Made by a program: the position numbers and the translations under genes. Under the pieces are notes generated by a model. That model did no database searches. It was not told the origin of the DNA and was given only the letters and a program-made list of their open reading frames with translations. This document shows, piece by piece, positions 51,722-56,290 of a stretch of DNA of 64,000 nt (position 1 is the stretch's first letter; each line of letters begins with the position of its first letter). Source of the DNA: Anaerolinea thermophila (GTDB lineage: Bacteria > Chloroflexota > Anaerolineae > Anaerolineales > Anaerolineaceae); NCBI RefSeq assembly GCF_020723905.1, contig NZ_DYHZ01000008.1:1-64000 (forward strand), in the 5' to 3' direction.

Positions 51722-51758
51722 GAAGCGGGAAGAACTCTAACTTCCCGCTTCTTTCTTT
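51722..51758 (+). terminator. Intrinsic terminator after leuS
   Basis: GAAGCGGGAAG (51722-51732) pairs perfectly with CTTCCCGCTTC (51741-51751), followed by TTTCTTT. Confidence 0.85.
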
Positions 51759-51839
51759 ATTTACCAATCTTATCGGAAATGTTAAGTGAAAGAATACGGG
51801 GATGAATTAAAATTACAATACACAAATCAGGGGTTTTTC

Positions 51840-53579
51840 ATGTCCTCAGATGCAACATTGCTTCAGCGTTTAAGAAAATTCGTAATAGAAGAAGCAGATG
51901 CTCAACGTGAGGCGTTAGAACGCCAGTGGAGTACTCCTTTATCCCAGAGAGTTGCAAAAGGATGGGCAATTGAAGGAATCCGCATTTTGAAGGTGGATAA
52001 ATTTCTGGTGCAAATGCGTTGTTATACCAATCAATCCCGTTTCCGCGAGGGAGATTTGGTTGTTCTGCACCGTGGAAACCCCAAGGATCCTGATGCTATT
52101 CACCTTGATCTTTATTACGATGGAGGAAACGATCTCGAAGCCGGTCTGATCCGCGGAAACCCTTACCTTTTACAGGCAGAACCGGACGGGTGGATTTTAG
52201 ATCAAGATTGGTTTGATACGAGTGAATTTTATCTTGCTGCAATTGATCAGATTGCGGATTCTCGTCGAGGGCGTTCAATTATTTTACCTGTTATTCAGGG
52301 AAACCTGTATCCTCAAATAGACTATGCTCGTTACCAGCGAGCGCGAGAATGGGCTTCTCACAGGGATTTAAACGAGAGCCAGATTGAGGCAATTTCTACC
52401 TCTTATGCCACGAATTTATACCATCTTATTCAAGGACCTCCTGGAACTGGAAAGACCCTGGTTCTGGCACATTTATCCGATCTCTTGGTTCAGGAAGGAA
52501 GTCGGGTTCTGATCACTGGATTGACGCATCGTGCAATTCATAATGCTCTTAATAAGGTTCATCAGGTGAATGCCAACTTACCTGTTTGTAAAATTGGGGA
52601 TCAACGACACGCGGGAGATTTGAAAGTTCCTAATTTTGAAACGTTTGATGAATCGGGGTTTGGAGATCTGAATAACGGGTATGTGGTTGGTGCTACTCCG
52701 TTTGCCTTGCAAACTCAACGCTTGATGAACGTTGAATTTGATGTGGTTATATTTGATGAGGCTTCTCAAGTTACACTTACTTTGGCATTAATGGGGATGT
52801 TAGCGGGAAATAAATACATTTTTGTTGGAGATGATAAACAGTTACCGCCTGTGACAGTTTTTGCTCAATCTAAAGATGAAGTTAGTTCAATTTTCTCGTT
52901 ACTTTCCGGGCGTGCCCAGGAGACGATATTAGACATTACCTACCGCCTAAATGATGTGCTTACAGAATGGCCCAGTAAGACTTTTTATGGAGGAAAACTG
53001 AAATCTAGCGAATCCTCGAGGAAAAGACGACTACATTTGATAGGAGAGCCAAGTCGGTGGGATATTATTTTCGATCCAGAGGCTCCAGCGGTATTTGTAG
53101 ATTTAGACCATAAAAATGCCACCACCAGAAGTATGTTAGAAGCAGAGATTGTTGCCGATTTAGTGGTTTCGCTGATTCTTCGAGGAATTCCCCCAAAAGA
53201 AATAGGTGTGGTTACGCCTTTCCGCGCTCAAAGTCGCTTGATTCGCACAATGTTATGGCGGATGATTGATGATGAAGAAATCCGCCGAGAAATTATCGTA
53301 GATACTGTTGAACGCATGCAGGGTCAGGAGAGAGAAGTAGTTTTAGTATCCTTAGCCACCTCAAGTCCTTCATTTGCTGCTCAGATTGCAGACTTTTTAT
53401 TTTCTCCACAACGTTTAAATGTGGCCATTACTCGACCTCGAACCAAGTTAATTCTTTTAGGAAGTAAACATGTCCTGTTATCAGAAAAATACGATCCAGA
53501 ACTGAAAGATCGTATTGATATGCTTCGTGATTTAATTAATTTCTGTACGAATATCCCTCTACAGGGAGGACTCCTATAA
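51840..53579 (+). CDS. Upf1/Dna2-type SF1B helicase
   Basis: The 579-residue protein has a poorly conserved N-terminal 170 residues (beta-rich, OB-like in part), then an SF1 helicase core: GPPGTGKT (199-206), GLTHRAIHNAL, DEAS (306-309), GDDKQLPP (330-337), VERMQGQEREVVLVS and RLNVAITRPRTKLIL. It lacks an obvious nuclease domain. A -10-like TACAAT lies at 51814-51819 and AGGGG precedes the ATG at 51840; a GTG at 51786 is possible. The gene is more A+T-rich than its neighbours. It is followed by a UvrD-like helicase four bases later. Confidence 0.88.
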   Translation: MSSDATLLQRLRKFVIEEADAQREALERQWSTPLSQRVAKGWAIEGIRILKVDKFLVQMRCYTNQSRFREGDLVVLHRGNPKDPDAIHLDLYYDGGNDLEAGLIRGNPYLLQAEPDGWILDQDWFDTSEFYLAAIDQIADSRRGRSIILPVIQGNLYPQIDYARYQRAREWASHRDLNESQIEAISTSYATNLYHLIQGPPGTGKTLVLAHLSDLLVQEGSRVLITGLTHRAIHNALNKVHQVNANLPVCKIGDQRHAGDLKVPNFETFDESGFGDLNNGYVVGATPFALQTQRLMNVEFDVVIFDEASQVTLTLALMGMLAGNKYIFVGDDKQLPPVTVFAQSKDEVSSIFSLLSGRAQETILDITYRLNDVLTEWPSKTFYGGKLKSSESSRKRRLHLIGEPSRWDIIFDPEAPAVFVDLDHKNATTRSMLEAEIVADLVVSLILRGIPPKEIGVVTPFRAQSRLIRTMLWRMIDDEEIRREIIVDTVERMQGQEREVVLVSLATSSPSFAAQIADFLFSPQRLNVAITRPRTKLILLGSKHVLLSEKYDPELKDRIDMLRDLINFCTNIPLQGGLL

Positions 53580-53583
53580 GACT

Positions 53584-55599
53584 ATGGCACACATTTTGCC
53601 TCCGCAGCCTCCCACGAAATTGCCCAAAGAAACCCTAAAGGTATTCGAGGCACTTAAGGCTTTACCTGATCGATATTTTATCTGGCATCACCTTGCTCCA
53701 TGGGACCCTCTTAGCCCAGACTTTTTGATTCTGACCTACGAAGGACAGGCATTACTGGTTAAGGTTTGCCCTACTACGATATCAGAGGCTTCTTCTTCAT
53801 TGCAAATGCGTCTCTTTGGAGAGTCGGTTTTACCGATAGGTAAAAAAGAAACAGAAATACTTGAAGGGTTTATTGAAAAAATAAATTTACCTCAAGGGTT
53901 TAATATTGGGGCTTTAATTATCTTTCCAAACCTTCCAAATACTCGAGTACAGGAAATATATCAGACTGTTTTGCCAAATTCTGTGTCATGGAGTGGAAAG
54001 GAAGTTCTTGAAGAGAATGAAGATGCGTGGAAACCTTTTTTCTCAAAGAATCCTTTACCTGCATTCTTAATTGAAAAAATCCGTCAGTGTTTTTCACCTG
54101 AAATTGTTGTACCAAGCAGTATGACGGTCCGTCCAGAAATTCAGCGGAGAGTAGAGGCTGGTCTTACGGAATATTTACTGGATTATGATCAGGAAAAGGC
54201 TGTTAAGTCCGATCTTGACCTTTCCAATGAAGATATGCCGTTGCTTTCAGATTTTCGGTTGAATATTATCAACGGAGTAGCAGGAAGTGGAAAAACCCTC
54301 ATCCTCATTTATCGTTTGCGTTTACTCTACAATATTTATCCACAAAAACGATATCTGGTCTTAACGCATAACCGCCCATTGAATTATGATATGCAATCTC
54401 GGTTTGCTCGATTAAATGGTGGAAAATTACCAGAAAATATTGAATGGTTCACATTTAATGGTTGGTGTTACCATTATTGGCCCAGAGAACGCGAGAAATG
54501 GATAGAACCCATAAGGATAAAATACCGTGAGCAAATTGCTGATGAAATAAGAAAAAGATATCTTCAAGACATGTCGATATCTACCGCGATGTTTCTGAGC
54601 GAAATTGATTGGATTAAGGATCAACTTCCAATGTCGCAAGAAGCATATCTCCAAATGGAGCGTCGTGGTAGAGGTTTTGGGTTAACCGTTGAACAGCGGC
54701 GTCGGGTTTATGAGGCTTTCCTGGCTTACCAGCAAAAGTTAGCAGAACAGGGAATATTGGATTGGGGCGAAGTTCCTCAAAAAATGTGGCAATATCTTGA
54801 GAATGGAGTGGTCATGCCTCCCTATTACGATGTGGTGATGATTGACGAGGCGCAATTTTTTGCCCCGCTTTGGATGCACATTGTCAAGAAACTGTTAAAA
54901 CCAGGGAATAGTCATTTATTTATTGTGGCAGATCCTACTCAGGGGTTTTTAGGTCGGGGTGGTTCATGGAAATCTCTGGGGCTCCAGGCACGAGGTCGAA
55001 CACACACTCTTCGTAAAAGTTATCGCACGACGTTCGAAATTTTGCAATTTGCTACATTGTTTTATCGTTTTCGACTTGGTGAAGATGACGAAGAGGGCAT
55101 CCTTGCTCCTGATTTGTTGAATATGCCTAATGGAGTGTTGCCTGAAATCCTTTTAATGCCCAGCCCTCAAGATGAAATTGTAAGAGTTGCGAACGAGGTG
55201 AAAGAATTTGTTGCCAGAGGTCTTCCCAAGAAACACCTGCTTCTGCTTCATACTTCTCAACAGGGGGTGAATGCCTTAATCAATGCGATAAATTCTCGAC
55301 TTGGAAAAGATGCTGCGCGTGACGCTAAAAGCGATTACCCCGGGGATTACGTGCGGGTTACTACGCTGAATGCTGGTGCAGGATTGGAGAGTCCCATAGT
55401 TTTCCTGGTTGGATTACGGGATTTATTTGAGCAGGAACAATCTTTACGTCTCTCTGATGAAGAAAGAGAAATGCTGATCAAGGACAATACCCGGAAATTA
55501 TATATGGCAATTACCAGAGCGGGACAACGGTTGGTTTTAACCCATGTAGGTGAGTTGCCGGAGGTATTGGCACAGGTTCAATCTAAAGTAAAGTCGTAA
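53584..55599 (+). CDS. UvrD/Rep-like SF1A helicase with NERD-like N-terminus
   Basis: The 671-residue protein has a core with GVAGSGKT (231-238), THNRPLNYD, IDEAQFFAP, the DPTQGF and RKSYRTTFEI segments and MAITRAGQRLVL at the end, all of UvrD-type SF1A helicases. Residues about 15-165 resemble NERD (PD-(D/E)XK nuclease-like) domains: SPDFLILTYEGQALLVKVC offers Asp46 and Lys60, but the usual E-x-K appears as L-V-K. It may therefore be inactive or highly divergent. It is coupled to the SF1B helicase and is A+T-rich. The job of the pair is unknown. Confidence 0.8.
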   Translation: MAHILPPQPPTKLPKETLKVFEALKALPDRYFIWHHLAPWDPLSPDFLILTYEGQALLVKVCPTTISEASSSLQMRLFGESVLPIGKKETEILEGFIEKINLPQGFNIGALIIFPNLPNTRVQEIYQTVLPNSVSWSGKEVLEENEDAWKPFFSKNPLPAFLIEKIRQCFSPEIVVPSSMTVRPEIQRRVEAGLTEYLLDYDQEKAVKSDLDLSNEDMPLLSDFRLNIINGVAGSGKTLILIYRLRLLYNIYPQKRYLVLTHNRPLNYDMQSRFARLNGGKLPENIEWFTFNGWCYHYWPREREKWIEPIRIKYREQIADEIRKRYLQDMSISTAMFLSEIDWIKDQLPMSQEAYLQMERRGRGFGLTVEQRRRVYEAFLAYQQKLAEQGILDWGEVPQKMWQYLENGVVMPPYYDVVMIDEAQFFAPLWMHIVKKLLKPGNSHLFIVADPTQGFLGRGGSWKSLGLQARGRTHTLRKSYRTTFEILQFATLFYRFRLGEDDEEGILAPDLLNMPNGVLPEILLMPSPQDEIVRVANEVKEFVARGLPKKHLLLLHTSQQGVNALINAINSRLGKDAARDAKSDYPGDYVRVTTLNAGAGLESPIVFLVGLRDLFEQEQSLRLSDEEREMLIKDNTRKLYMAITRAGQRLVLTHVGELPEVLAQVQSKVKS

Positions 55600-55609
55600 G
55601 GAGTCTTTC

Positions 55610-56290
55610 ATGCGGATAGAAGATCTTAACTGGATGGATGTTGAAGCCTACCTTCAACAGGAAGATCGGCTGATTCTGGTACTGGGGACAATTGAACAGC
55701 ACGGTTACCTGAGCCTTGCAACTGATGTGCGCATTCCGATGGCGCTGGCAGATGCCGCCAGTCAGCGCACCGGGGTGCTGGTAGCACCGCCAGTCCATTA
55801 TGGCGTTTCACCCTATTTCATCACATACCCGGGCACCTTTAGCCTTCGCCTTTCTACATTTCTGGATACTGTGGAAGATATTGTGCGCTCGGCGTATGCG
55901 CAGGGGTTTCGGCGCATTCTGGTGTTGAACGGACATGGAGGCAATGATCCTGCACGGGGTAGATTGGTGGAACTGATGAATCAACTGCCGGGGTTAAAAA
56001 TCGCCTGGTATGCCTGGTGGACTTCGCACAGCGTGGAAGCCTTTGCGATTGAGCATCAGTTAGAGCGCAATCATGCCAACTGGATGGAAGCCTTCCCTTT
56101 TACGAGAGTCAGCCCGCTTCCAGATGGGGAGAAAGTTTCTCCCTCGGTGAAAGGTTTGTTGAACGCTGAAGAGACCCGCGCGGTTTATGGAGACGGCTCT
56201 TTCGGCGGTCCCTATCAGGTGCCGGCAGAACTTATGGATGAACTCTTTGCGGTTTGCTTACAGGATGTGCTTTACCTGCTGGAGTTTTAA
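55610..56290 (+). CDS. Creatininase-family amidohydrolase
   Basis: The 226-residue protein has the family motifs LVLGTIEQHGYLSLATD (metal ligands Glu and His) and ILVLNGHGGNDPARG. Members include creatinine amidohydrolase and MftE-type peptidases. The usual EQHGPHLPLGTD spacing is one residue shorter here, and the second histidine is missing, so metal coordination may differ. It starts 10 bases after the UvrD-like gene but has codon use like the chromosome, and AAGGAG as ribosome-binding site. Confidence 0.82.
   Translation: MRIEDLNWMDVEAYLQQEDRLILVLGTIEQHGYLSLATDVRIPMALADAASQRTGVLVAPPVHYGVSPYFITYPGTFSLRLSTFLDTVEDIVRSAYAQGFRRILVLNGHGGNDPARGRLVELMNQLPGLKIAWYAWWTSHSVEAFAIEHQLERNHANWMEAFPFTRVSPLPDGEKVSPSVKGLLNAEETRAVYGDGSFGGPYQVPAELMDELFAVCLQDVLYLLEF

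Follow-up and report, generated by a model that had tools for sequence, protein, structure and literature searches.

A horizontally spread pair of SF1 helicase genes, one with a degenerate NERD-like domain, as a candidate undescribed defence system

The helicase pair and its place in the window

We analysed a 64,000-nt stretch of the Anaerolinea thermophila genome (contig NZ_DYHZ01000008.1; hereafter the window), in which two co-directional genes, P1 and P2, encode superfamily 1 (SF1) helicases and are separated by 4 nt (Table 1). A first-pass annotation, made from the letters of the window, had described two helicase genes four bases apart, of the Upf1/Dna2-type SF1B and UvrD-type SF1A families, lying between a leuS terminator and a housekeeping-like gene, and had proposed that they constitute an undescribed defence or repair system. 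The open reading frames (ORFs) and profile matches bear out the layout and both family calls, a terminator-like hairpin follows leuS, and the downstream gene encodes a creatininase-family hydrolase. That annotation did not contain the NERD-like domain of P2 or its degenerate active site, which are described below. The pair is a good candidate for a defence system, because it travels across unrelated bacteria, its motors look active, and some of its copies adjoin known anti-phage systems.

Table 1. Features of the P1-P2 locus in the window
Feature	Coordinates	Strand	Description
P1	51840..53579	+	Upf1/IGHMBP2/Dna2-type SF1B helicase, 579 aa, ATG start
P2	53584..55599	+	UvrD-type SF1A helicase, 671 aa, helicase part residues ~168-671
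P2 N-terminal NERD-like domain	53584..54099	+	Residues 1-172; ExK glutamate replaced by leucine
Whole insert, leuS stop to creatininase-family start codon	51701..55609	+	3909 bp, G+C 0.42
Terminator-like hairpin after leuS	51722..51751	+	11 pairs, T-rich tail
Creatininase-family gene	55610..56290	+	Closes the insertion site, outside the module; PF02633, E 2e-42; adjoins leuS in relatives

P1 matches Pfam AAA_11/AAA_12 and IGHMBP2-type helicases with a complete helicase core, and no domain beyond this core was recognised in it. The AlphaFold2 model of P1, with a predicted local distance difference test score (pLDDT) of 90.7, can be aligned with IGHMBP2 (4b3g) over 533 of the 579 residues, with a Z score of 32.3 and a root-mean-square deviation (rmsd) of 3.0; Upf1 and Dna2 are among the other fold matches. 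Nine motor residues were checked, each of which is conserved in 41/41 homologues, and by this conservation the P1 motor looks active. An in-frame GTG at position 51786 would extend the protein to 597 aa, and relatives align from the ATG. One P1 copy, in genome G005 (L038 766-2508; also L054), carries an in-frame TAA near residue 70, which points to gene decay or else to a mistake in the assembly. A P1-like helicase without P2 is also found on a Bacteroides fragilis plasmid (L018 7950-9728), where it adjoins an AbiD-like gene (E 1e-75 in PADLOC, which was used throughout as single-protein models).

P2 matches the UvrD family, and its model (pLDDT 85.4) aligns from residue 168 on with UvrD (2is4) over 435 residues, with a Z score of 29.2 and an rmsd of 4.5. 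The closest folds are UvrD/PcrA, with HelD and AddAB also among the matches of this whole-protein search. Residue counts are based on 78 homologues with a length of 500 aa or more, after two solo-type paralogues and shorter ORFs had been dropped. Motor residues K237, D421, E422, Q424, Q453 and R481 are present in 78/78 of these, E602 in 75/78 (three gaps), and R645 in 71/78 (six gaps, one C). The P2 motor likewise looks active.

The N-terminal domain of P2 receives no score from Pfam NERD at E 1. Its profile aligns with that of the active NERD domains of solo NERD-UvrD proteins at an hhalign probability of 96.4% (E 1.4e-9), and the order of predicted elements, helix-strand-strand-strand-helix, fits the NERD fold when the model is read by eye. 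The glutamate position of the ExK motif is non-acidic in 77 of the 78 homologues, and the lone E (L016) lies in a gapped, misaligned stretch; among the other active-site residues, the lysine is kept in 48/78 and the aspartate in 56/78. The ExK motif is intact in 5/5 solo NERD-UvrD relatives, and Pfam NERD scores all four of those scanned. The NERD-like domain of P2 looks catalytically dead on these counts, and no active nuclease domain was recognised in either protein of the pair. The analogy with nuclease-paired helicase defence systems, drawn in the first-pass annotation, therefore needs correcting. One of these five solo relatives, ExK included, is encoded by the window's own genome (G000) on contig C12 (L042 8168-10240), as a second NERD-UvrD protein besides P2, and it adjoins a gene that appears RadC-like by eye.

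Pairing, rarity and horizontal transfer

The pair is more A+T-rich than its surroundings, as had been noted from three counts of 27, 22 and 37 G+C in 60 nt, all of which are exact on recount. The insert has a G+C of 0.42, against 0.54 for the remaining window. The lowest-G+C 3760-bp segment of the 64 kb, starting at 51752 (0.419), coincides with the pair, whereas segments clear of it have a mean of 0.539, a standard deviation of 0.016 and a minimum of ~0.509. Third-position G+C is 0.34 and 0.37 in the pair genes, whereas leuS has 0.60 and the creatininase-family gene 0.55. Because three near homologous pairs have a G+C of 0.53 to 0.57, the low value is peculiar to the window copy, as would be expected if this copy had come recently from a donor rich in A+T.

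Of four genomes from the same genus, three (G001, G003, G004) have leuS and the creatininase gene directly adjacent, with short gaps and no pair between them, and the same empty site is present in G007, from another genus. The fourth same-genus genome (G002) holds ~4.5 kb of unrelated genes there; since this is a different insert, insertions may be tolerated well at this position. By eye, the G002 insert (L050 1048-5597) encodes a PadR-like regulator, membrane proteins and others. The pair was not found in any of these four genomes, two of which are only 84% and 61% complete. The available flanks of 95 other P2 loci, a few of which represent one place more than once, contain no match to leuS or to the creatininase gene at E 1e-20, and the sole match to the window's neighbours in the flanks of other loci is a 31% ABC1-kinase match at L059. 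The insert is given in Table 1 as the span between the flanking genes. A long repeat was looked for at its ends and none stands out, on which ground a recognisable element as insertion agent was rejected. A hairpin scan of the region finds 4 terminator-like sites against a shuffle mean of 4.2, i.e. no excess.

We scanned genome contigs for P2 and took the best 80 of 168 relatives. Of these 80 loci, 74 have P1 ahead of P2 in the same orientation, L058 included. Only the end of P1 matched at L090 and L115, and P1 is cut by the contig end at L067. The P1-P2 gaps are short except at L052, L080, L091 and L105 (~350 to 1,400 nt). As for the other six loci, the contig ends within L081, L094 and L124, a fragment of P2 is all that L117 has, and P1 is absent from L113 and L119. 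The Kiritimatiellia homologue at L113 (2966-4912) has unrelated genes on both sides. The homologue at L119 (1003-5202) has a long N-terminal part in one ORF, with no Pfam match at E 1e-4 and methyltransferase-like by eye, and is possibly a single-gene variant.

Nine loci read separately, seven from new genomes and two re-reads (L118 and L120), are all paired. In addition, four Vibrio plasmid records matched, and the pair is present in all three of the regions read. By record title, the hosts are mainly Chloroflexota, together with Verrucomicrobiota, Kiritimatiellota, Kistimonas (a gammaproteobacterium) and one Gracilibacteria-labelled contig. The question raised in the first-pass annotation, whether homologues of both proteins are neighbours in other phyla, is thus answered by several phyla and by the Vibrio plasmids.

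The pair is rare, being found in 2/151 genomes of its phylum, 5/390 in the order of Kistimonas and 7/288 in the phylum of a Verrucomicrobiota carrier, rough counts that include known carriers and score the best few first-look candidates per genome. Orthologue scores stand apart in the 151 phylum genomes (980 versus 239 bits for P2, 860 versus 296 for P1), and orthologue-range matches of P1 and P2 occur in the same two of them (G008 is not in this sample). Carriers number 4 of 61 genomes searched, the window's own included (G000, G005, G007 and G016). A DNA-level search of E. coli genomes gave no match.

Distances in the P1 and P2 trees correlate with an r of 0.88 over 40 pairs and of 0.90 within Chloroflexota, the maximum of 2000 shuffles being 0.37. 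This correlation shows that the two genes stayed together, and it does not separate co-inheritance from shared host history. The pair is a patchy, horizontally spread, co-inherited gene set, which is one feature expected of a defence system. Horizontal transfer of a compact two-gene module, as first proposed from the composition, is well supported by the empty sites, the absence from same-genus genomes, the unrelated flanks elsewhere, the foreign composition, and the pairs in several phyla and on plasmids. Homologues are not always in vertical, syntenic positions, which according to the first-pass annotation would have spoken for a core repair unit.

Defence context and proposed role

Several copies of the pair lie close to known defence genes. 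On Vibrio coralliilyticus plasmid pOCN014, a complete Gabija system is located 2.3 kb upstream and a complete Septu system 4.0 kb downstream (E 1e-93 to 1e-266), while in Vibrio parahaemolyticus the plasmid-borne pair adjoins an HNH gene that matches type IV restriction, with an AbiP-like gene further on. A type I restriction enzyme and the candidates PDC-S02 and PDC-S05 are situated around the pair at L165, an OLD/GajA-like protein is encoded near it at L066, a NACHT protein at L054, and DrmA and DrmB (the DISARM case) beside the P2 fragment at L117. In Ornatilinea apprima (L060 12149-15607), P2 is followed after 129 nt by a same-strand Cas_NE0113 gene and then by Cas10; this Cas_NE0113 carries a C-terminal sigma-70/LuxR-like helix-turn-helix match. 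P1 and P2 aside, each gene cluster beside the pair occurs in at most 7 of 83 loci, many of them in close relatives, and there is no generally shared third gene.

The pairing, the matched trees, the conserved motor residues, the degenerate nuclease site, the horizontal spread and the defence neighbours at several loci were all computed, and with moderate confidence we read them as the marks of a mobile two-gene, two-motor system that would counter phages or plasmids and would have no nuclease itself. An anti-phage or anti-plasmid role would be the most economical one for a rare, mobile, strictly paired module with some copies in defence islands. Upf1-type SF1B helicases move 5′ to 3′ and UvrD-type SF1A helicases 3′ to 5′. 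P1 and P2 would form a single complex whose motors, being of opposite polarity, could each follow one strand of a duplex and yet advance the same way, like RecB and RecD at a DNA end. The complex may load where phage or plasmid DNA has an end or is being replicated and, because the NERD active site is gone, would unwind or clear the DNA instead of cutting it. The DNA would then be destroyed by nucleases of the host or by neighbouring systems, or its replication would stall. The non-cutting NERD domain is probably a structural or nucleic-acid-binding module.

A more specific form of this proposal, which we put forward tentatively, is immunity free of nucleases: a RecBD-like pair of opposite polarity would stop phage or plasmid DNA by translocation alone, with the dead NERD domain as a DNA-reading or docking module. 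Such translocation could act by unwinding, by stripping replication or packaging proteins, or by feeding DNA to host nucleases. Bacterial immune systems often contain helicases; to our knowledge, those of the systems compared below are coupled to a nuclease or other effector. A strictly paired, multi-phylum, two-motor module with a decayed nuclease would make protection by translocation alone directly testable.

A number of observations weigh against the proposed two-gene defence system. P2 occurs without P1 at L113 and L119, P1 is missing beside the DrmA and DrmB genes of L117, and a P1-like helicase of 41% identity stands without P2 in G008 (L041 8879-10732). The formation of a complex is inferred, and the polarity of its motors is taken from their families. 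Since phyla form groups in both the P1 and the P2 tree, inheritance with loss may account for much of what happened within each phylum. The genes recognised beside the pair in the window include none for defence, and the window copy, L163, L164 and others lie among genes that look ordinary by eye. Furthermore, 20 neighbours were scanned singly, and 15 gave no PADLOC match at E 1e-8; these proteins, like those matched on the Vibrio plasmids and at L165 and L117, were in part selected by eye, so that their match rates are not estimates.

A bulk comparison of neighbours with control regions showed no clear enrichment. The near set comprised the 110 nearest of 377 neighbour ORFs from 69 loci, minus one 1,990-aa ORF; it leaves out 11 loci (syntenic copies, plasmids, the window and L094) and includes a P1 remnant, L115:9512-9991. 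For the control set, 18 stretches were chosen arbitrarily in relatives, pair-bearing ones among them; these gave 229 ORFs, of which 109 were used, with ORFs above 1,700 aa dropped. PADLOC families matched numbered 184 among the 109 near neighbours and 65 among the 109 controls, a difference that is not counted as enrichment, since one OLD-type protein alone accounts for 82 families and the figures are not match counts per protein. The most frequent families near the pair are AbiEi (3/109), DrmD-type (2, both from one metagenome-assembled genome) and PDC-S01 (2), and in the control set the generic mad3 (5) and mad8 (4); in the Pfam tally of the near set, WD40 models matched by 4 proteins take up the list, which makes it uninformative. 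The question of defence islands, raised in the first-pass annotation, has a clear answer at single loci, while the comparison in bulk shows no clear enrichment. The proposal of a defence or repair system is partly supported, defence by the context of these single loci.

The alternative that fares best is an accessory module for DNA repair or replication conflicts (stalled forks, R-loops), gained and lost for reasons unrelated to phages, to which we give a smaller but appreciable probability. Its two motors would remodel damaged DNA or displace protein and RNA, a role that needs no nuclease. The closest folds, UvrD/PcrA as well as HelD and AddAB for P2 and IGHMBP2/Upf1/Dna2 for P1, are in accordance with such a role, as is the placing of several copies, the window's included, among ordinary-looking genes. 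The rare, patchy distribution, the foreign composition, and the plasmid copy between Gabija and Septu argue against it, however. Nor does the pair appear to be a simple stand-in for AddAB: long AddA-like proteins (~1,100 aa; one AddA model) are found in 4 of 15 relatives, none pair-bearing, and are missing from the other 11, four with the pair and seven without. Replacement of AddAB by the pair is not supported, because AddA-like proteins are missing from the seven pairless genomes too.

It is rather unlikely that the pair, instead of standing alone, assists whichever defence system lies next to it, for instance type III CRISPR or Gabija. The Cas_NE0113 and Cas10 genes of O. apprima, so close to P2 and on its strand, would suit a helper, and so would the match of P2 to the NERD+UvrD model C3a187 (2e-34), whose C3a label presumably denotes type III accessory proteins; but the neighbouring system varies by locus, no third gene is generally shared, and no such neighbour was recognised in the window. 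We regard as improbable that the genes are cargo that aids the replication or spread of mobile elements and not host defence. Copies do occur on mobilizable and conjugative plasmids, another plasmid copy lies near an integrase and a VapE-like gene, and one integrase-like ORF cluster is present in 5/83 loci. On the other hand, no mobile-element gene was noticed in most loci (their flanks are short and not all annotated), none of the 151 pattern matches of a viral-contig scan for P2 was confirmed, and phage records gave only two weak partial matches. Chance adjacency through local insertion, for which one could cite that helicases are common and that both families have solo relatives, is rejected by the 74 loci out of 80, spread over several phyla, in which P1 precedes P2, and by the correlated trees.

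Comparison with known systems

The open-access literature yielded no description of the pair, although later or closed-access work may have named it. The best matches in PADLOC-DB (2023 protein models) are MkoA for P1 and C3a187 for P2. Mokosh, Gabija and the solo NERD-UvrD proteins each have a defining feature that the pair lacks.

Mokosh (types I and II) shares with P1 an Upf1/Dna2-type SF1 core; P1 matches the MkoA models at 2e-54 and 2e-42, and the best stretch of the former match is the C-terminal part of the core. For Mokosh, PMC10952713 lists a NERD domain in type I and a PLD nuclease, as a separate gene or domain. Unlike Mokosh, the pair has no kinase, NERD or PLD match in P1, no PLD match in P2 and no PLD gene alongside, and its second gene is of the UvrD type. 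Gabija (GajA and GajB) likewise consists of two genes with a UvrD-type helicase, and P2 matches GajB weakly (best 1e-14), far less well than it matches C3a187 (2e-34). In contrast to Gabija, the partner of P2 is an SF1B helicase and not an OLD-type ATPase/Toprim protein, no GajA lies next to the window pair, and the one pair copy that adjoins a complete Gabija system does so as a separate unit.

RecBCD, AddAB and AdnAB share the SF1A motor, and RecBCD has a second SF1 motor; the fold matches of P2 to these enzymes have Z scores of 17 to 23. The pair differs from them in having no active nuclease and no RecC/AddB-like partner that we could see, and P1 is Upf1-like, its matches to RecD and RecD2 being weak (E 1e-8 and 1e-12). 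Long SF1 defence proteins (NCBIfam PLuB_AAA NF040671, Hhe and ProA; PADLOC DpdJ) share the helicase core with P1, which matches PLuB_AAA at E 2.5e-62 and DpdJ at 5e-41. Their models span 1,256 to 2,112 positions, however, whereas P1 is a bare 579-aa helicase and stays far below the NCBIfam cut-offs (211 versus 999 bits for PLuB_AAA).

The solo NERD-UvrD proteins (PADLOC candidate C3a187) share with P2 the order of a NERD domain followed by a UvrD-type helicase. One such relative is located ~1.6 kb upstream of a pair, at L058. The solo proteins keep the ExK motif in all five cases, and no P1 lies beside any of L042-L046, whereas P2 has lost ExK and has an Upf1-type partner. Solo proteins with ExK and paired ones without it offer a defined contrast for the step from a nuclease-helicase to a pure motor.

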